Shown piece after piece: positions 14,341-22,968 of a stretch of 54,976 nt of DNA (its first letter is position 1; each line of letters starts with the position of its first letter). Position numbers and translations under genes: made by a program. The stretch spans positions 1 through 54,976 of the forward strand of contig CACLCL010000007.1 in NCBI GenBank assembly GCA_902605445.1, given 5' to 3'. This DNA comes from an uncultured Bacteroidota bacterium. Its GTDB lineage: Bacteria; Bacteroidota; Bacteroidia; Flavobacteriales; Flavobacteriaceae. The notes beneath the pieces were generated by a model. The model did no database searches, was not told the DNA's origin, and was given only the letters and a program-made list of their open reading frames with translations.

Positions 14341-15555
14341 ATTTATAATTTACTTATTAAAATATCTGAATTTATAATACTATGTATTTCTCCTTTTTCA
14401 AAAAAAATAAATAAGGGAATAATAGGAAGAAGAAATAGTTTTTCATTATTGAAATCATCTTTTTGCAAAGACGATAAAATAATTCATGTTCACTGCTCAT
14501 CATATGGTGAATATTTAATGTCTGAAAACTTAATTAAAAAATTAAAAAACAAATTTGAAGGCCATAAAATTCTTTTATCATTTATTTCTCCATCTGGATT
14601 TGAAAATGTAAAGAAAAACAAATTTGATTGTGTTATATATCTGCCATCTGACACTAGCGACAACTGTAAAAAGTTTTATAAAATAATCTCACCAAACATT
14701 ACTTTATTTATGAAAAATGAAGTTTGGCCAAATTTCATAAAATATGCAAAAAAAAGTGGCTCTAAAATTTATTCAATTGGTGGAAATTTTAAGGCAAATA
14801 AATTAAAAAGATTTTTCGGTATTTATCAATCAATGAAAAAATTTGATAGAATATTTGTTCAGAATAAATCTTCAAAAAAAATATTAAATAAAATCGTTAA
14901 AAAAAAAATAACTGTTATTGGTGATTTAAGATTTGATTCTAATATACCAAGTCTTTCAATAAGCTTCAAAAAAATTATAGAAAGATTTATAAATGGAAAA
15001 CAATGTATTGTTTTTGGGAGCACATGGAAAGAAGATGAAAAGCTTGCAGTAAAATATATAACTGAGTCTAAAAGAAACATTAAATATATTATTGCTCCTC
15101 ACGAAATCTCTAATAACTGTCACCGACTAAAGCAATCTCTTAAAAAAAAAGCAGTTTTATTTTCAGACTTAATGTCAGCCAAAAATTTTAATAATTATTC
15201 TTGCTTAATAGTTGATAATGTTGGAATGCTGTCATCATTATATTCTTTTGCGACAATAGCATATGTTGGGGGTGGTTTAGGAAAAAAAGGGCTTCATAAT
15301 ACTATTGAGCCTGCGCATTTCTCGAAGCCGATTATAATTGGAAATAATTTTGAGAATTTTGATGAAGCTGAAGAAATGATAAAAAATGAAGGTATGTTAA
15401 GTATTTCTAACTATGATGAGTTTTATAATAAAATTGAAAAAATAATAGCTAATAAAAAAATTATTGAAAAAATGTCAAGATTAAATAATGAATATTATTT
15501 AAGTAAAAAGGGTGCTGTTAAAACTGTTCTTGATATCATTAATCAGGATTTCTAA
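14341..15555 (+). CDS. waaA: 3-deoxy-D-manno-octulosonic acid (Kdo) transferase, non-canonical start
   Basis: Attaches Kdo to lipid A precursor at the inner membrane, a key step of LPS core assembly. Catalytic domain features are the 'HCSSYGEY' block with the catalytic Glu, 'GSTWKEDEKL', and 'GGLGKKGLHNTIEPAHFSKP' near the C-terminus. The first in-frame start of the usual kind is TTG at 14449, which would remove the N-terminal membrane anchor. Upstream of that TTG the frame remains open to a TGA at 14335 and encodes YNLLIKISEFIILCISPFS, exactly what WaaA N-termini look like. Only ATT (14341) or other rare codons are available at the expected site, giving about 404 residues, the family's normal size. 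A sequencing error, a frameshift or rare ATT initiation are all possible. It overlaps trpA tail-to-tail by 17 bp. Confidence 0.85.
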   Translation: MYNLLIKISEFIILCISPFSKKINKGIIGRRNSFSLLKSSFCKDDKIIHVHCSSYGEYLMSENLIKKLKNKFEGHKILLSFISPSGFENVKKNKFDCVIYLPSDTSDNCKKFYKIISPNITLFMKNEVWPNFIKYAKKSGSKIYSIGGNFKANKLKRFFGIYQSMKKFDRIFVQNKSSKKILNKIVKKKITVIGDLRFDSNIPSLSISFKKIIERFINGKQCIVFGSTWKEDEKLAVKYITESKRNIKYIIAPHEISNNCHRLKQSLKKKAVLFSDLMSAKNFNNYSCLIVDNVGMLSSLYSFATIAYVGGGLGKKGLHNTIEPAHFSKPIIIGNNFENFDEAEEMIKNEGMLSISNYDEFYNKIEKIIANKKIIEKMSRLNNEYYLSKKGAVKTVLDIINQDF

Positions 15556-16309
15556 TTTCTCTTATAAAATTATTAATACTTTCTAATCCATTTTTTTCGA
15601 TATTCTTGATGAAAGCACTTCCTATAATACAACCTTTTGAATATCTACTCGCAATTGAAAAATTTTCATTATTAGAAATTCCAAATCCTATTATTCTTGG
15701 TGAAGACAAATTCATATTTTTTAATTTATTAAAATAATCTATACTTTCCCTGTCAAATTTTTTTGTTGAACCTGTAATACTTGACGAACTAACAACATAA
15801 ATAAAACCTTCACTGTGTTTGTCAATATATCTTATTCTACTAGTTTTGGTTTGAGGGGTAACTAAAAAATTATTTAACAGATTAAATTTTTGAAAAATCT
15901 TTTTATAATCATTAAGATAAATATCTATAGGAAGATCAGGAATTATTAACCCATCTATTCCTACACTCATACATTTTTCACAAAAAGACTCCAAACCAAA
16001 CTGAAAAATTGGATTAAGATAACCCATTATAATTAGGGGAATATTTACCTCATCCCTAATATCTTTCAGTTGGTCAAAAAGTAAATTTGTATTAATACCA
16101 TTTTCAAGAGCAATCTTTGAGCTCATCTGAATTGTTTTTCCATCAGATAGAGGATCACTAAAGGGAAGACCAATTTCTATCATGTCAACACCACTTTTCT
16201 TAAGAGTTTTAATTATTTTAGATGTACTTTCCAGCTTAGGATAACCGGCAGTAAAATATATTGATAAAATATTATCTTTCTCTTTTAAACATTTTATTAT
16301 TCTGTTCAT
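15539..16309 (-). CDS. trpA: tryptophan synthase alpha chain
   Basis: Cleaves indole-3-glycerol phosphate to indole and glyceraldehyde-3-phosphate and channels indole to TrpB. The 256-residue TIM barrel has the catalytic pair E45 and D56 in 'MIEIGLPFSDPLSDG', the 'YFTAGYP' opening, 'PDLPIDIY', 'YVVSSSSITGS' and the phosphate-binding 'GFGISNNE' and 'GCIIGSAFI'. It is the last gene of the trp operon; its ATG overlaps the end of trpB by 4 bp. Its stop lies 17 bp inside the end of the convergent waaA gene, so no terminator fits between them. Confidence 0.97.
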   Translation of the reverse strand: MNRIIKCLKEKDNILSIYFTAGYPKLESTSKIIKTLKKSGVDMIEIGLPFSDPLSDGKTIQMSSKIALENGINTNLLFDQLKDIRDEVNIPLIIMGYLNPIFQFGLESFCEKCMSVGIDGLIIPDLPIDIYLNDYKKIFQKFNLLNNFLVTPQTKTSRIRYIDKHSEGFIYVVSSSSITGSTKKFDRESIDYFNKLKNMNLSSPRIIGFGISNNENFSIASRYSKGCIIGSAFIKNIEKNGLESINNFIREIRNPD

Positions 16310-17490
16310 TTTATACCAAAATATTTAATATAATTTTCTAGATCTTTATCTCCTCTCCCGGACAGGTTTAAAACAATTATATCATCTTTATTGAATCTTT
16401 TATTTTCAAAAATAGCTAATGCGTGAGATGTTTCAATCGCAGGAATTATACCCTCTAACTGAGATAATTGTAGGCCTGCAGTCATAGCTTCATCATCGTC
16501 TATAGCAATAAATTCTGCTCTTTTTGTCTCGAACAAATTAGCATGAATTGGTCCAATACCAGGGTAATCTAATCCTGCAGAAATGGAATAAGGTTCAGAG
16601 ATTTGACCATCTTCTGTCTGCATAAGAAGAGTTTTACTTCCATGAATAATCCCTATTTTTCCAAGTTTAGTTGTTGCTGCTGATTGACCAGAACTAACTC
16701 CTTTTCCAGATGCCTCAACGCAAATAATATTTACTCTTTCATCATCTAAATATTCATAAAATGTTCCAGCAGCATTGCTCCCTCCACCAACACATGCAAT
16801 AATGTAATCTGGATAATCTCTTCCTTCAATGACCATTAATTGTTTTTTTATTTCTTTTGAAATTATTGATTGAAATCTTGCCACCATATCTGGAAATGGG
16901 TGTGGACCAACAACACTTCCAACAATATAGTGAGTATTAACAGGATTATTAATCCAATCTCTCATAGCCTCATTAGTAGCATCTTTTAAAGTGGAGCTTC
17001 CTGATTTAACAGAGATAACGTCAGCCCCTAACATCTTCATCCTTGCAACATTGGGAGCTTGTCTCTTAATATCCTTTGCACCCATATAAACTATACACTT
17101 CAATCCCATTAAAGCACAAACTGTTGCAGTAGCAACACCATGTTGACCAGCACCAGTTTCTGCAATGATTCTTGATTTTTTTAATTTTTTTGCTAATAAA
17201 ATTTGACCAATTGTATTGTTTATTTTGTGTGATCCAGTATGATTTAAATCTTCTCTTTTCAGATAAATTTTAGTTGAATATTTATCGGATAATTTTCTTG
17301 AAAAATATAACGGTGATGGTCTACCTACATAGTTTTTCAATAGCTCATTAAACTTTAATTGAAAACTTTTTTCATTAATAATTCTTTGATAATTTTCTTT
17401 TAACTCCGTTATATTATGTAATAACATTTCCGGAATGTAAGCACCTCCAAATTTACCGTAATAACCTTTTGTGTCTATATTATAACTCAT
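16306..17490 (-). CDS. trpB: tryptophan synthase beta chain
   Basis: PLP enzyme that condenses indole with serine to give tryptophan. The 394-residue protein has 'GKFGGAYIPEML' at the N-terminus, the PLP lysine K89 in 'HTGSHKINNT', 'AETGAGQHGVATATVCAL', the phosphate-cradling 'CVGGGSNAAGTF', and 'HGSKTLLMQTEDGQI', typical of the TrpB1 type that partners TrpA. It overlaps trpF by 11 bp and trpA by 4 bp. Confidence 0.98.
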   Translation of the reverse strand: MSYNIDTKGYYGKFGGAYIPEMLLHNITELKENYQRIINEKSFQLKFNELLKNYVGRPSPLYFSRKLSDKYSTKIYLKREDLNHTGSHKINNTIGQILLAKKLKKSRIIAETGAGQHGVATATVCALMGLKCIVYMGAKDIKRQAPNVARMKMLGADVISVKSGSSTLKDATNEAMRDWINNPVNTHYIVGSVVGPHPFPDMVARFQSIISKEIKKQLMVIEGRDYPDYIIACVGGGSNAAGTFYEYLDDERVNIICVEASGKGVSSGQSAATTKLGKIGIIHGSKTLLMQTEDGQISEPYSISAGLDYPGIGPIHANLFETKRAEFIAIDDDEAMTAGLQLSQLEGIIPAIETSHALAIFENKRFNKDDIIVLNLSGRGDKDLENYIKYFGIK

Positions 17491-18088
17491 TAATAAATTT
17501 TTTAATTAGTTGAAAATCTTTTATGCCTTTGTCTAATTCAAAATGACTATTGATGTCCAATGCAAAACAATTATCTGAAATTTCTGAATTAAAAAAATTT
17601 TTAATTTTTTTAATATTACTAAATCCTATTCCCCCAGCTAAAAAAAAAGGTTTGTTTAAGCTATATTTTCTTAATATTTTCCAATCAAATGAAATACCAT
17701 TTCCGCCAGGCATTTTACCTTTTGTGTCAAAAAGAAAATAATCACATGAATCAAAAGCTATTAATTTTTGAAAATCAAAATCTTTATCTATTGGAAATGC
17801 CTTAATAATCTTAACACCTTTTATTTTTGAAATATAATCGGGGCACTCATTACCATGTAGTTGAACATAATCAAGTTTATATTTTTTAACCATACTAAAT
17901 ATGTAGTTAATTTCTGCATCTACAAAAACACCTACTTTTTTTATAGATTTATTTATAACGGGGATTTGCTCCTCTGTAAAAAATCTAGATGAATTTTTAT
18001 AAAAAATAAATCCCATAAAGTTAGGTTTTAGTTTAGAAATTAAACATATATTTTCAGCGTATTTCATTCCACAAATCTTAATTCTCAT
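17480..18088 (-). CDS. trpF: phosphoribosylanthranilate isomerase
   Basis: Isomerises phosphoribosylanthranilate to the carboxyphenylamino-deoxyribulose phosphate. The 202-residue TIM barrel opens with 'IKICGMK' (catalytic Cys), and has 'PNFMGFIFYKNSSRFF', 'VGVFVDAE', 'YVQLHGNE', 'FLFDTKG' (catalytic Asp) and 'FFLAGGIGFSNI'. It is a separate gene, not fused to trpC. It overlaps trpC by 11 bp and trpB by 11 bp, indicating translational coupling through the operon. Confidence 0.96.
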   Translation of the reverse strand: MRIKICGMKYAENICLISKLKPNFMGFIFYKNSSRFFTEEQIPVINKSIKKVGVFVDAEINYIFSMVKKYKLDYVQLHGNECPDYISKIKGVKIIKAFPIDKDFDFQKLIAFDSCDYFLFDTKGKMPGGNGISFDWKILRKYSLNKPFFLAGGIGFSNIKKIKNFFNSEISDNCFALDINSHFELDKGIKDFQLIKKFINEL

Positions 18089-18869
18089 CTTTAATATCTT
18101 TTATAATTTGTGTTGCAACCTTAGCAGGATCTTTTGATCTCATAAAATATCCTCCGATCAAAAAACCCTTGTATCCATATTTTCTTAATTGAATTACAGA
18201 TTCATAATTTTCAATGCCACTTTCTGACAGCTTCAAAAAATCTTCAGGAATTTTACTTGCAATAGTCTTTGAAGTGTCAATATTAGTTTGAAATAAGCGA
18301 AGATTTCTATTATTTACCCCAATCATATCTACATTAGGAATTAAAACTTTATCCAATTCATTTTTATTATGAATCTCTGCCAAAACTTCAAGATTTAATT
18401 CTTTTGCAAGTTTTGCGAAGGCATTGATTTTTTCTTTTGATAAAATTGAAGCAATTAATAAAATTACATCAGCCCCTAGTGATTTCGATTCAATAATTTG
18501 ATATTCATCAAGAATAAAATCTTTTCTTAAAATTGGCCCATCAAAAATATTTCTTGACTTTGTCAAATCAATTTGTGAACCACCAAAAAAATTAAAATCA
18601 GTTAAGATTGATATGCCACATGCTCCAGCAATCTCATAGCCCGAGACAATACTTTCCAAATTTGGTTTATATTTCATAAAATTTTTTGACGGAGATTTTC
18701 GCTTAAATTCAGCAATAATCCCAGAGTTGCTTCTGAGTAAAACTTTTTTTAATGAACTGGTTTCCTTATAAAAGTTTTTGCGGGATTCTAAATCAGAAAC
18801 TGCATATTTTATTTTAAGGCTGTTGATTTCCTGAATTTTATACCTAATAATTTTATCAAGAATATTCAT
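18078..18869 (-). CDS. trpC: indole-3-glycerol phosphate synthase
   Basis: Forms indole-3-glycerol phosphate by ring closure and decarboxylation. The 263-residue barrel shows 'IIAEFKRKSPSK' (catalytic Lys), 'ILTDFNFFGGS', 'PILRKDFILDEYQI', 'ADVILLIASIL', 'EIHNKNEL', 'IGVNNRNLRLF' and 'LSESGIENYE', all in the expected order. It overlaps trpD by 4 bp and trpF by 11 bp. Confidence 0.97.
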   Translation of the reverse strand: MNILDKIIRYKIQEINSLKIKYAVSDLESRKNFYKETSSLKKVLLRSNSGIIAEFKRKSPSKNFMKYKPNLESIVSGYEIAGACGISILTDFNFFGGSQIDLTKSRNIFDGPILRKDFILDEYQIIESKSLGADVILLIASILSKEKINAFAKLAKELNLEVLAEIHNKNELDKVLIPNVDMIGVNNRNLRLFQTNIDTSKTIASKIPEDFLKLSESGIENYESVIQLRKYGYKGFLIGGYFMRSKDPAKVATQIIKDIKDEN

Positions 18870-19861
18870 CTACTTAATTCAATTAATTTACTTAATGCTT
18901 GCAATGCGTCTTTATCCTTGAGAGATTTTTTTGCAATTTCATAAGCGTCATTAATATTTATGCCCTTGTATGTTGAAATTGCTAATGCTGAATTAGCTAA
19001 AACCACGTTAACTTGTTCTTTTGTTCCCCTAAGATTTAAAACATCAACAAATATTTTTGCAGCCTCTTTTATAGAATTTCCTCCAAAAATTGACTGTTGT
19101 GAAATCCTATTTAGACCTAAATCGGCAGGCTTGAAAATAAAGTCTTTGTTATTTGTTGAAACTTTCGTTTCAGATGTTAATGAGACTTCATCATATCCAT
19201 CCAATGAATAAATTATTGAATATTTAAATTTACTTTCTTTTTCAAAAACAGATTTGTAAAGCCTCAAAATATCCAATCCGTATACACCTACAAGCTGATT
19301 TTTAGGTCTACATGGATTCACCAATGGACCTAAAATATTAAAGAATGTTTTTAGTTGTAATGCCTTTCTTATTGGTGCCACACTTTTCATCGCCGGATGA
19401 AAAAGTGGTGCATGTAAAATACATATTTTTGCTTGATCTAAACATTTTTTCAAAAATTCATTATGATTAGAGAATTTTACACCCAGGTACTCTAATACAT
19501 TTGAAGAACCACAAATTGATGACACTGAATAATTTCCATGTTTAGTGACGTGCACTCCTGCACCAGCAGTAACAAATGATGCTAATGTAGAAATATTGAA
19601 TGTATTTTTATTATCTCCACCCGTACCACATAAATCTAAAGTTGAATAATCGCTAAAATCAGCCTTAACTGATAGTTCAATTAATGCATCTCGAAAACCC
19701 ATTATTTCATCGCTAGTAATACTTCTGTACATAAAAATTGTCAAGAAGGAAACTACCTGTTCATTATTAAATTTTCCGTTTGAGATATCTAAAAGTATAT
19801 TTTTAGACTCTTGAATTGAAAGTGTCTCATGATTTAATAATCTTTTTATAATTTCTCTCAT
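18866..19861 (-). CDS. trpD: anthranilate phosphoribosyltransferase
   Basis: Transfers phosphoribose from PRPP to anthranilate. The 331-residue protein has the PRPP-binding 'LCGTGGDNKNTFN' (77-89), 'HGNYSVSSICGSSNVLEYLG', 'AKICILHAPLFHPAMKSVAPIRKAL' in pieces and 'FNILGPLVNP'. It is free-standing, not fused to trpG. The ATG follows the trpG stop with 1 bp between, and its end overlaps trpC by 4 bp. Confidence 0.97.
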   Translation of the reverse strand: MREIIKRLLNHETLSIQESKNILLDISNGKFNNEQVVSFLTIFMYRSITSDEIMGFRDALIELSVKADFSDYSTLDLCGTGGDNKNTFNISTLASFVTAGAGVHVTKHGNYSVSSICGSSNVLEYLGVKFSNHNEFLKKCLDQAKICILHAPLFHPAMKSVAPIRKALQLKTFFNILGPLVNPCRPKNQLVGVYGLDILRLYKSVFEKESKFKYSIIYSLDGYDEVSLTSETKVSTNNKDFIFKPADLGLNRISQQSIFGGNSIKEAAKIFVDVLNLRGTKEQVNVVLANSALAISTYKGININDAYEIAKKSLKDKDALQALSKLIELSR

Positions 19862-19862
19862 A

Positions 19863-20426
19863 TTAATTTTTAATCCAATTTTTAATTAAGCTTTTCCCAC
19901 ATGGTGTTAATATTGATTCAGGATGAAACTGGAATCCTTTAACATCAAAATATTTATGTCTTATCGACATAATTTCCCCATTTTCATCAATTGAGGTTAT
20001 TTCAATGTCTTCAGAAATTTTATCAACTACCCATGAATGATACCTTGCTGCAGTAAAATTATTTTGAATACCATCAAAAATTGGTTCATCCTCTTTACAA
20101 ATATTTATTTTGGTTGATACTCCATGGAAAACCTCGTTTAAATTTTTTAGAGTCCCACCATAAACCTCAGCTATTGCCTGCTGCCCCAAACATATTCCTA
20201 AAATACTTTTGTTAGGACCATACTTTTTTATTACTTCTTTTAACAAACCAGCTTCATCAGGGATTCCTGGTCCAGGGGAAAGTAATATTTTATTAAATGT
20301 TGAAATTTCAGAAAGTAAAAACTTATCATTCCTTAATACTGTTACATTACACTCAAGCTCCCTGAGTAGATGCACTAAATTGAATGTGAAACTATCATAG
20401 TTGTCTATTACCAAAACCTTTTTCAT
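19863..20426 (-). CDS. trpG: anthranilate synthase component II (glutamine amidotransferase)
   Basis: Supplies ammonia from glutamine to TrpE. The 187-residue class I amidotransferase has 'VIDNYDSFTFNLVHLL', the oxyanion strand 'LSPGPGIPDEAG', the nucleophile C79 in 'GICLGQQAIAEVYGG', 'ARYHSWVV' and the catalytic His-Glu in 'FQFHPESILTPCG'. In some bacteria such a subunit is shared with p-aminobenzoate synthase; whether that is so here cannot be told. It lies between trpE and trpD with 1-bp gaps on both sides. Confidence 0.96.
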   Translation of the reverse strand: MKKVLVIDNYDSFTFNLVHLLRELECNVTVLRNDKFLLSEISTFNKILLSPGPGIPDEAGLLKEVIKKYGPNKSILGICLGQQAIAEVYGGTLKNLNEVFHGVSTKINICKEDEPIFDGIQNNFTAARYHSWVVDKISEDIEITSIDENGEIMSIRHKYFDVKGFQFHPESILTPCGKSLIKNWIKN

Positions 20427-20427
20427 A

Positions 20428-21825
20428 TTAAATATTATTTGCCATTTCTATAGATTTGGTAAGTGCATTTAATTTATTATACACTTCATTTAATTCATTA
20501 ATATTATTTGACTTGTCTACTATTCCTGCACCAGCTTGCCAATGCAGACAATTATTTTTACTTAAAAAAGTTCTTATCATTATTGCATGATTAAAGTTTC
20601 CTTGAAAATCTAAAAAGCCAATCGCTCCACCATAATATCCTCTGTTAGTTTTTTCATATTTATCAATTAAACTCATTGCCATATGTTTTGGGGCGCCAGA
20701 GAGTGTACCTGCAGGAAAAGTATCTGCAATAATATTTAAATTTTTAGTGTTATCCTCTAACTGCCCAGTGACTTTACTTACCAGATGAATAACATGCGAA
20801 AAAAATTGAATTTCCTTAAATTTATTTACTTTAACATCACGACAGTTTCTGCTTAGATCGTTTCTCGCTAAATCAACCAACATGACATGTTCACTTACCT
20901 CTTTTGGATCATTCATTAGTTTTTCAGCTAATAATTTATCCTTTGTGTCATCACCAGTTCTTTTAAATGTTCCAGCAATTGGATGTATTTCTGCATATTT
21001 ATTTTTAATAACTAATTGTGACTCAGGTGAACTGCCAAATATTTTAAAATTACCATAATCAAAATAAAAAAGATAAGGCGACGGATTTATACTTCTCAGA
21101 GCTCTGTAAACATTAAAATCATCTCCAGAAAATTTTTGACTAAATCTTCTAGATAATACCAACTGAAAAACGTCACCTCTCTTGCAATGTTTTTTTGCCT
21201 TTGTAACATGATTTATAAATTCTTTATCGCTTAAATTTGATTTAACTTTTTCTACTGACCTAAATTTAAAATTGTTAAAATCTGAGAATTTTATAATCTG
21301 ATAAATCTCATCAATATTATTTGTGTTATCGTCAGAGTGACAAAATATATATGCAATATTTTTAAAATGATCTATTGCAATGATATTTTTATAGATGCCA
21401 TAATACATTTCAGGAATAGAAATCGGATTATTTTTTTTTGTGATTTTTATGTCCTCAAAATATTGTACGGCATCATATGCTGTAAAACCGAAAAGACCAT
21501 TATTAATGAATGGTAAGTCATCTTTATTAATTTCAAAAGAATTGATGAAGGTTTCCAGTTCCTTTAAAATATTATCCTTTGTACAAGAATCTCTGACCTC
21601 GATGTTGTCAGGAAACTGTTTTATAATTTCATTATTAAAAACCTCAAATTTTGCAATTTGATTAAAGCATATATATGAAAAACTATTATTATTAGAGTTA
21701 TAATCACTGCTCTCTAATAGTAAACTATTGTGAAATTTATCCCTTATTCTTAAGTACACACTAACCGGTGTTATAGTATCAACTAAGAATTTTTTACTAT
21801 ATGTTTTTAATAAATATTTTTTCAC
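20428..21825 (-). CDS. trpE: anthranilate synthase component I
   Basis: Makes anthranilate from chorismate, the first committed step to tryptophan. The 465-residue protein has the chorismate-binding C-terminal domain with 'GDVFQLVLSRRFSQKF', 'NPSPYLFYFDYG', 'GSSPESQLVI', 'HPIAGTFKRTGD', 'LVDLARNDLSRNC' and 'FPAGTLSGAPKHMAM'. The start is GTG at 21825; no ATG is available upstream in frame before the leader hairpins. It is the first structural gene after an attenuator-like leader (21826-22017). Feedback inhibition by Trp is usual in the family; the N-terminal Trp pocket was not examined in detail. Confidence 0.97.
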   Translation of the reverse strand: MKKYLLKTYSKKFLVDTITPVSVYLRIRDKFHNSLLLESSDYNSNNNSFSYICFNQIAKFEVFNNEIIKQFPDNIEVRDSCTKDNILKELETFINSFEINKDDLPFINNGLFGFTAYDAVQYFEDIKITKKNNPISIPEMYYGIYKNIIAIDHFKNIAYIFCHSDDNTNNIDEIYQIIKFSDFNNFKFRSVEKVKSNLSDKEFINHVTKAKKHCKRGDVFQLVLSRRFSQKFSGDDFNVYRALRSINPSPYLFYFDYGNFKIFGSSPESQLVIKNKYAEIHPIAGTFKRTGDDTKDKLLAEKLMNDPKEVSEHVMLVDLARNDLSRNCRDVKVNKFKEIQFFSHVIHLVSKVTGQLEDNTKNLNIIADTFPAGTLSGAPKHMAMSLIDKYEKTNRGYYGGAIGFLDFQGNFNHAIMIRTFLSKNNCLHWQAGAGIVDKSNNINELNEVYNKLNALTKSIEMANNI

Positions 21826-21839
21826 TTTTTATTGTTATT

Positions 21840-21861
21840 GGAGGGGGAATTACCCCCCCCC
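21840..21861 (-). promoter_or_regulatory. G-run hairpin just before trpE
   Basis: The transcript reads nine G, then UAAUU, then CCCCCUCC. Five G-C pairs (plus two beyond a mismatch) make a strong hairpin between the attenuator and the GTG of trpE, ending 14 nt before that codon. It is not followed by a U-tract, so it is not an intrinsic terminator. A role in translation start or RNA stability is an inference. Confidence 0.5.
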
Positions 21862-21888
21862 TTTTTATAAACAAACTAAAAACTAATC

Positions 21889-21924
21889 AAAAAAAAAAGG
21901 CTTATCGTGATGATAAGCCTTTTT
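21889..21924 (-). terminator. trp operon attenuator (intrinsic terminator)
   Basis: On the transcript strand a perfect 9-bp stem AGGCTTATC / GATAAGCCT with loop ATCAC (arms at 21920-21912 and 21906-21898) is flanked by A and T runs that extend it, and is followed by ten T (21898-21889). It lies after the Trp-rich leader peptide and 63 bp before trpE, the position of an attenuator. The loop and the first bases of the 3' arm (ATCACGA, 21911-21905) are exactly complementary to TCGTGAT at 21953-21947, which spans the leader stop codon. Confidence 0.85.
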
Positions 21925-21947
21925 CAAATTAAATAATAGGGATTAAA

Positions 21948-22004
21948 TCACGAAATTGAAATTTCATGTTTCCACCACCAGTTATTTAATTGTAATTTTT
22001 TCAT
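21948..22004 (-). CDS. trpL: trp leader peptide with three consecutive Trp codons
   Basis: An 18-codon frame upstream of trpE encodes MKKLQLNNWWWKHEISIS, with TGG-TGG-TGG at codons 9-11 (21980-21972) followed by a TGA stop at 21950-21948. Trp is the rarest residue, so three in a row directly before a terminator and the trp operon is strong evidence for a regulatory leader peptide. When Trp-tRNA is scarce a ribosome should stall on these codons; when it is plentiful it should run to the stop codon, which lies inside the putative antiterminator strand. Family knowledge of such leaders comes mainly from enterobacteria; here the sequence is independent of theirs. Confidence 0.88.
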   Translation of the reverse strand: MKKLQLNNWWWKHEISIS

Positions 22005-22009
22005 TTGTA

Positions 22010-22017
22010 CAAATATA
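22010..22017 (-). promoter_or_regulatory. -7 box for the trp operon
   Basis: Minus-strand TATATTTG matches TAnnTTTG. It lies only 5 bases upstream of the trpL ATG, so the transcript would begin nearly at the leader start codon (almost leaderless). A TTTG is found at 22046-22043, about 25 bases upstream, slightly far for a -33 element. No Trp operator was recognised. Confidence 0.45.
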
Positions 22018-22073
22018 AAACTAATTATTTAAATTAGCTACCCAAATTTTTATATTTATTGAATTATTATTTT

Positions 22074-22775
22074 ATGGGAAAAAAGAGTTTTTTAATATTA
22101 ATTTCTTTTGGGATTTTTTTAAATAGTTGTTCAATTGAAAAGAAATATATTAAACACAACAAGTTTTTTGAAAAAGATATTTCCAATCTTGAGCAAAAAA
22201 ATTCAAAAATACAAACTAAAGACTATCTGTTATTTATTGGTAGCTCAAGTATTGTTCGCTGGGAAACAATAAAAAAAGATATGTACCCATATAAAGTTAT
22301 TCGTAATGGATACGGAGGAGCACACTATTATGATTTGATTCATTTTATTGAAAGAATTTGTAAAGGACATGAAAAAGCAAAAGCTATTTTTATTTTTGTA
22401 GCAAATGATATTACAGGTGTAGAGTTTGGAAATCATCGTGATTTAAAGCCCAGAGAAGTTAAGAGGTTATTTAAATCAGTTTATAAAAAAATAAGAAATA
22501 AATTAGGAGATAAAATTCCAATCTATATCATTGAAACAACGCCAACTCCATCAAGATGGGATGTTTGGGAGAAAATTAAATCAACAAATGATTTAATAAT
22601 GTCTTATACAGAAAAAGAGAATGAACTATTTTATATTACGACAAGAGATTATTTCTTGAACGATAATGGCACACCTATTTCAAATTATTTTGTAGATGAC
22701 CAGCTTCATTTAAATGATTTAGGTTATAAAATTTGGTCTAAAATCATTAAAAATAAAATAAAAAACCCGCAATAA
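22074..22775 (+). CDS. SGNH/GDSL hydrolase-like lipoprotein
   Basis: Likely periplasmic or membrane-anchored esterase of the SGNH superfamily. The ATG at 22074 gives 233 residues; a TTG 5 codons earlier is less likely. The N-terminus is a lipoprotein signal with lipobox LNSC (C19). Superfamily blocks are visible: 'LLFIGSSSIVRW' (block I, presumed nucleophile S58), 'NGYGGAHYYD' (block II Gly), 'FVANDI' (block III, N111) and 'DDQLHLNDLGY' (block V, D209 and H212). Known relatives include lipases, carbohydrate esterases and acyl hydrolases, and the substrate cannot be chosen here. The gene is divergent from the trp leader and ends at a bidirectional terminator shared with the tRNA genes. Confidence 0.87.
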   Translation: MGKKSFLILISFGIFLNSCSIEKKYIKHNKFFEKDISNLEQKNSKIQTKDYLLFIGSSSIVRWETIKKDMYPYKVIRNGYGGAHYYDLIHFIERICKGHEKAKAIFIFVANDITGVEFGNHRDLKPREVKRLFKSVYKKIRNKLGDKIPIYIIETTPTPSRWDVWEKIKSTNDLIMSYTEKENELFYITTRDYFLNDNGTPISNYFVDDQLHLNDLGYKIWSKIIKNKIKNPQ

Positions 22776-22790: not shown

Positions 22791-22793
22791 GTG

Positions 22794-22879
22794 TACTGAA
22801 GGCGGGACTTGAACCCGCACGGATATTACTATCCATTGGATTTTAAGTCCAACGTGTCTACCAATTCCACCACTTCAGC
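22794..22879 (-). tRNA. tRNA-Leu (UAA)
   Basis: 86-nt class II tRNA read from 22879 to 22794: acceptor GCTGAAG pairs with CTTCAGT (a G-T pair at the end), D-loop with GGTAGACAC, anticodon loop CTTAAAA giving anticodon UAA, a long variable arm around TGGATAGTAATATCC, and T-arm GCGGG-TTCAAGT-CCCGC. The CCA end is not encoded (CAC follows the discriminator A). It follows tRNA-Gly on the same strand by 14 bp. Confidence 0.96.
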
Positions 22880-22893
22880 ATAAACTTTAATTG

Positions 22894-22968
22894 TGGAGCG
22901 AAAGACGGGATTTGAACCCGCGACCCTCACCTTGGCAAGGTGATGCTCTACCCCTGAGCTACTTTCGC
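22894..22968 (-). tRNA. tRNA-Gly (GCC)
   Basis: Read from 22968: acceptor GCGAAAG / CTTTCGC, D-arm AGCTCAGGGGTAGAGC, anticodon loop TTGCCAA with anticodon GCC, T-arm GCGGG-TTCAAAT-CCCGT, discriminator T. A CCA triplet at 22896-22894 follows directly and may be encoded, unlike in the neighbouring tRNA-Leu. The two are probably one transcript. Confidence 0.97.

Follow-up and report, generated by a model that had tools for sequence, protein, structure and literature searches.

The trp operon of an uncultured bacterium of the Flavobacteriaceae is preceded by an element which is very probably a ribosome-mediated transcription attenuator and a member of the Bacteroid-trp RNA family. It was found in contig CACLCL010000007.1, of which the stretch analysed here (54,976 nucleotides) is called the window. 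For the family as a whole we hold a related reading with less assurance, although we lean towards it: the trp attenuators of Flavobacteriaceae would share a stop-codon hook, usually UCGUGA, which catches the terminator loop ahead of stem closure and is gated by the ribosome at two places, and in the genus of the window, as well as in a part of the family, the switch would be carried by a near-leaderless mRNA without Shine-Dalgarno sequence. The features of the locus are given below, in the order of transcription apart from the Rfam match and with the source of each assignment.

22010–22017, minus strand: Bacteroidota -7 promoter box TATATTTG (consensus TAnnTTTG), separated from the leader ATG by 5 nt (sequence)
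21948–22004, minus strand: leader peptide ORF trpL, MKKLQLNNWWWKHEISIS followed by UGA, 18 codons (sequence)
21972–21980, minus strand: three Trp codons (TGG, codons 9–11), the presumed stall site (sequence)
21961–21968, minus strand: segment 1, CAUGAAAU, pairing with 21956–21949 in the protector hairpin (fold)
21947–21953, minus strand: segment 2, UCGUGAU, which overlaps the stop codon of the leader and would supply the 5' strand of the putative antiterminator (pairing, alignment, mask folding)
21905–21911, minus strand: segment 3, AUCACGA, consisting of the terminator loop and the two bases that open the descending arm, which would supply the 3' strand of the putative antiterminator (pairing, alignment, mask folding)
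21889–21925, minus strand: intrinsic terminator with U10 tract (sequence, fold)
20428–21825, minus strand: trpE, with GTG start at 21825 (sequence, NCBIfam)
15539–20426, minus strand: trpG, trpD, trpC, trpF, trpB and trpA, in that order (sequence, NCBIfam)
21912–22024, minus strand: Rfam RF01692 (Bacteroid-trp), matched with a score of 51.2 bits (scan of the window)

The short leader ORF has WWW at codons 9–11, that is, tandem codons for the product of the pathway, and the intrinsic terminator lies between it and the first structural gene. The whole window was scanned for runs of identical residues (14 residue types, ORFs of 8–35 codons with ATG start). The leader was the sole ORF that combines a run of three identical residues with a terminator downstream. 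Its fold reaches -35.4 kcal/mol, compared with a shuffle mean of -17 kcal/mol (z-score -5.84), and none of 200 shuffles attained this stability. The fold z-score and the unique ORF, together with the passed Rfam cut-off and the retention in relatives described below, place the Trp leader beyond chance.

The terminator core AGGCTTATC/ATCAC/GATAAGCCT at 21920–21898 (minus) has 9 bp and a 5-nt loop, and the T10 tract (21898–21889) shares its first T with the core stem as the last base of the latter. In the minimum-energy fold, flanking pairs extend the stem to 14 bp. The first-pass annotation of this DNA had described an 18-codon minus-strand ORF with TGG at codons 9–11, which is indeed present at 22004–21948, followed by a stem of 9 bp with a 5-nt loop and T10. 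Loop and T tract agree with our data, the 9 bp being the core of the longer stem only; the distance of 23 nt given between ORF and stem fits the extended stem counted from 21924. That trpE and the complete order trpEGDCFBA follow the leader could be confirmed (21825–15539, minus). The proteins of trpG, trpD, trpB and trpA score above the curated cut-off of the expected NCBIfam family; for trpE, trpC and trpF the expected family is the best match but remains below its cut-off. The GTG start of trpE aligns by eye with the ATG of the congeners. On the other side of the leader lies a divergent plus-strand ORF (22059–22775) without NCBIfam match at 1e-10, and behind it tRNA-Gly(GCC) and tRNA-Leu(TAA) (22793–22968, minus).

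Membership in RF01692 is indicated by a match over the full model (1–131 of 131) with 51.2 bits at a gathering cut-off of 49, a margin of 2 bits only. The match is 86 nt away from trpE, in a Bacteroidota host whose genome (1.02 Mb, 68% complete) yielded no other one; at gathering scores, the scan of the window returned Bacteroid-trp and two tRNAs only. The element thus shares with the family the full-length match, the Trp codons, the position before trpE and the host phylum, and nothing excludes its membership. The model stops within the 5' arm side of the terminator (…GGCUUGUC), and its structure line includes neither the terminator pairing nor a UCGUGA/UCACGA antiterminator. The Bacteroid-trp RNA motif was reported in 2010 (Weinberg et al., PMC2864571). 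It is conserved before the trp operon of Flavobacterium psychrophilum and has been likened to Escherichia coli attenuation (PMC6414381), and strong clues were obtained for leader-peptide attenuation upstream of amino-acid operons in that species (PMC9723704). Novelty is not upheld, as the element is catalogued and attenuation had already been inferred for F. psychrophilum. A literature search of titles and beginnings of abstracts, with most subscription journals and all supplements outside its reach, yielded no description of the UCGUGA/UCACGA antiterminator.

The leader is widespread in the family. At E ≤ 0.001, RF01692 was detected in at least 141 of the 199 family genomes sampled, 123 of these matches scoring over the cut-off, and in at least 27 of 395 class genomes; the window's genome is counted in both figures, which are lower bounds because the filters used were stricter. 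We fetched 154 leaders, first 54 (40 of them from family members, the other 14 from class genomes outside the family) and then 100, leaving out six RF01692 matches of the family. WWW is present in 136 of the 140 leaders with an exact promoter box and in-frame ATG, and the first W is codon 9 in 126 of the 140. The ten terminator stem pairs are kept in 99.9% of the cells of 148 aligned leaders, with 42 double-change cells. Trp codons and stem thus passed the conservation check across Flavobacteriia which the first-pass annotation had proposed.

A further sample was chosen by protein and consists of the best 80 trpE relatives among the matches listed, some of them from the same genomes. Within 400 nt before trpE, 78 of these have an ORF with a Trp run and a terminator, and WWW occurs in 77 of the 80 loci. 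Inspection by eye revealed the same leader with a TTG start in one of the two misses (L197) and truncation by the contig end in the other (L233). The nearest trpE relatives among the matches listed, 77–78% identical, are records of uncultured Flavobacteriaceae or Bacteroidetes, which we take to be of marine origin from their isolate names. In the window's genus, 18 of 21 genomes have any trpE match. A full-length trpE relative is found in nine, including the window's own; the remaining 12 (56–86% complete) have distant trpE paralogues or nothing. All eight congener loci read contain WWW, terminator and hook.

There are 58 family genomes without an Rfam match, 19 of which were examined. In 14 of the 19 we found a trpE with at least 50% identity, in 13 cases with upstream DNA, and 12 of these 13 loci have an ORF with a Trp run and a terminator, five with only WW. 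The single exception, L180, has no Trp-run leader before trpE. RF01692 as built misses diverged leaders (L167–L179), including those with only WW or with a replaced hook (L177).

The candidate antiterminator is formed by UCGUGA, located 3' of the Trp codons at the leader stop codon, and the complementary UCACGA, which spans the terminator loop and the start of the descending arm. Both sequences are nearly invariant. For each leader, the best match of its segment to the loop zone was compared with 100 shuffles at a threshold of 0.05 (n=152, as two of the 154 leaders had no terminator by the finder used). At most 5 of 100 shuffles matched the hook pairing in 137 of the 152 leaders. The family contributes 134 passes among 138 leaders; outside it, elsewhere in the class, only 3 of 14 pass (L012, L018, L023), and several class-only leaders have a shorter or wobble-containing pairing, e.g. 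CGTAAG/CTTGCG. As judged from these sequences, the hook appears to be established for the family and is only hinted at beyond it; since most class-only leaders fail this comparison, the hook reading is restricted to Flavobacteriaceae. The choice of leaders has no bearing on the loop side, as the RF01692 model spans UCGUGA but stops before the loop. Hook pairing was also found in 73 of 78 protein-chosen leaders, in 9 of 12 from the genomes without Rfam match (L168, L171 and L179 miss the threshold) and in all eight congeners. Among the five protein-chosen leaders that miss 0.05 is L191, which was scored against a zone other than that of the hook; L060, from the same genome, passes.

In a MAFFT alignment of 148 leaders, each of the six core hook pairs is kept in 138 to 148 sequences. 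The nine-pair helix has 79.5% of its cells paired, with 25 double-change cells versus 17.5 ± 3.2 in shuffles (7 of 500 shuffles reach 25). Versions of the helix slid along the alignment have 20.8–48.5% of cells paired and at most 10 double-change cells. The covariation score of 0.063 is hardly above that of two slid versions (0.056 and 0.058), so that covariation on this alignment is modest. A stronger sign of the proposed hook than alignment covariation is its two-sided replacement in diverged leaders: GGATTCAG/CTGAATCC in L177, TCGCGA/TCGCGA in L176, GCGAG/CTCGC in L178 and GTCGCAAT/ATTGCGAC in a further one.

A protector hairpin conserved base by base throughout the family is not supported: 44.3% of its cells are paired, versus 59.2% in one slid version. 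The hairpin may occur in forms peculiar to individual lineages. To see whether other operons reuse the hook, six genomes were searched with a pattern of CGTGA, a gap and the 3' half of a trp-type terminator. All five matches are trp leaders, the pattern being so narrow that looser hooks fall outside it. In the same six genomes, His-run leaders (30 of 47 places examined as loci) revealed no clear attenuator with a hook.

The hook is not tied to the reading frame of the leader. Frames were counted in those 138 of the 152 leaders for which an exact box, an in-frame ATG and a terminator were all found; TCGTGA is present in 122 of them. It is in frame within the ORF in 66, with TGA as stop codon, and in the +1 frame within the ORF in 28; in 23 it is in frame past the stop and in five placed otherwise. 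Relative to the first base of the stop codon, its start ranges from 8 nt upstream to 11 nt downstream. As the bases are kept while the frame shifts, it is the RNA that is constrained, not the peptide. If the ribosome is assumed to occupy 16 nt, counted from the first base of the P-site codon, then at the stop codon it hides all six bases in 120 of the 122 leaders and part of them in two.

The response of the fold to ribosome position was computed by mask folding. For the window, placing a ribosome on any one of codons 9–11 gives an antiterminator probability of 0.78–1.0 at nascent lengths of 98–104 nt; the probability is zero without ribosome or with the ribosome at the stop. From 106 nt on, including full length, the terminator wins in all ribosome states. 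An equilibrium switch was rejected for the window on these grounds. Because the terminator wins once its 3' arm is complete, the switch would have to act kinetically, within a short interval: by computation, the antiterminator is exclusive with the terminator and gated by the ribosome kinetically, not at equilibrium.

For the relatives, every pairing in which the loop zone engages bases between Trp run and terminator was counted, and the best of three nascent lengths was taken for one stall position, with a threshold of 0.5. In the stall state, the antiterminator reaches this value in all 130 family leaders, compared with 224 of 520 shuffled controls. With the ribosome at the stop it remains below 0.5 in 126 of 130 and reaches it in four; without ribosome it does so in 45 of 130. 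The complete three-state pattern is found in 83 of 130 family leaders only. Of eight class-only leaders, all reach 0.5 in the stall state (14 of 32 shuffled controls), two without ribosome and two with the ribosome at the stop; four have the complete pattern. The model points to gating at two places, a stall at the Trp codons freeing the hook and a ribosome at the stop codon hiding it.

The proposed course of events is as follows. Transcription would begin roughly one base ahead of the leader AUG, and the 18-codon peptide would be translated by a ribosome. When charged tRNA-Trp is scarce, the ribosome should halt at codons 9–11 and cover segment 1. Segment 2, freed by the stall, could then pair with AUCACGA as it emerges from the polymerase, ahead of terminator closure, and transcription would continue into trpE. 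When Trp is plentiful, the ribosome would reach the stop codon and cover segment 2, allowing the terminator to form. Without translation, segment 2 would be held by the hairpin with segment 1, and the terminator would form too.

The attenuator interpretation, already offered in the first-pass annotation, is supported by Trp codons, terminator, location ahead of trpEGDCFBA and conservation, and also by the candidate antiterminator, which that annotation did not mention. Three other explanations were weighed. The terminator might be constitutive and the ORF decorative, a fixed fraction of transcripts ending regardless of Trp supply. Such behaviour would agree with a terminator that outcompetes everything at full length, but it does not account for WWW in nearly all leaders of both samples, nor for a conserved loop sequence complementary to the end of the ORF, and we regard it as very unlikely. 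The stall might instead depend on the nascent peptide or on free Trp, as in a TnaC-like arrest, rather than on empty tRNA-Trp. The constant place of the Trp run would suit an arrest peptide; however, the residues after WWW vary by lineage, the register of the ORF end relative to TCGTGA differs among leaders, and adjacent codons for the product of the pathway are the classical starvation design, which makes this explanation less credible still. Least probable of all is control of the terminator by a regulatory protein or a T-box style RNA, for which we found nothing in favour; no T-box was detected in the Rfam scan of the window at gathering scores.

Ribosome-mediated attenuation as proposed here resembles that of the E. 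coli trpL attenuator, with which the window shares tandem Trp codons and a terminator and would also share protector hairpin, antiterminator and the deciding role of ribosome position. The window leader has three Trp codons, whereas E. coli trpL has two. Further, the E. coli antiterminator uses the ascending arm of the terminator, while that predicted for the window would use the loop and the top of the descending arm. Flavobacteria are also described, in PMC9723704, as having no Shine-Dalgarno sequences, in contrast to the enterobacterial system.

An exact TAnnTTTG box is present within 50 nt upstream of the ORF in 144 of 154 leaders, versus 4.2% of shuffles. According to PMC9723704, the box lies at -12 to -5. 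With the gap of 5 nt in the window, a 5' untranslated region of about 1 nt and a +1 position near 22005 are therefore predicted, i.e. an almost leaderless mRNA. In all eight congeners, a TAnnTTTR box precedes the ATG by 4–5 nt. Of 132 gaps in the genus-spread family sample, 29 are at most 6 nt, mostly 5, with a second peak at 17–19; in the protein-chosen sample this applies to 2 of 65, with peaks at 8–9 and 14–15 and the TTTA boxes of the congeners uncounted. By these counts, the near-leaderless form would be a minority. The two peaks at about 5 and 17–19 nt (L001–L166) look as if near-leaderless and leadered forms were alternative states. Among the examined mRNAs of F. psychrophilum, 5.5% are leaderless according to PMC9723704. 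A near-leaderless trpL is not without precedent, since trpL of Sinorhizobium meliloti is described, in PMC7298713, as a possible small leaderless mRNA. Both RNAs would start at or adjoining the leader AUG, which for the window is only predicted from the box; the S. meliloti case differs in its alphaproteobacterial host, its 14-aa peptide and its role in trans.

The spacer between terminator and trpE contains a second stable hairpin, G9/CCCCCTCC, at 21861–21840 (minus). The window spacer folds at -18.5, shuffles at -9.2 ± 2.6. A hairpin is also found in the spacers of all eight congeners (-15.6 to -21.0 kcal/mol), in L060 and L063 with unrelated sequence. As all congener spacers fold, two of them with unrelated sequence, this suggests selection for spacer structure in the window's genus; among the 138 spacers of the wider set, no more than 27 reach -6 or below. 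The sequence TAGTTTGT at 21878–21871 (minus), in the same spacer, is kept in the window and all eight congeners. It matches the TAnnTTGY box (SM5) of PMC9723704 and could be a second promoter bypassing the attenuator.

As the element is already catalogued, its occurrence before this trp operon is no surprise. What is added is a switch anatomy, with an antiterminator model, for the flavobacterial members of the family. Its value would lie in a concrete, testable model of trp attenuation, built on a six-base hook and its loop partner, for bacteria that initiate translation without Shine-Dalgarno sequences.
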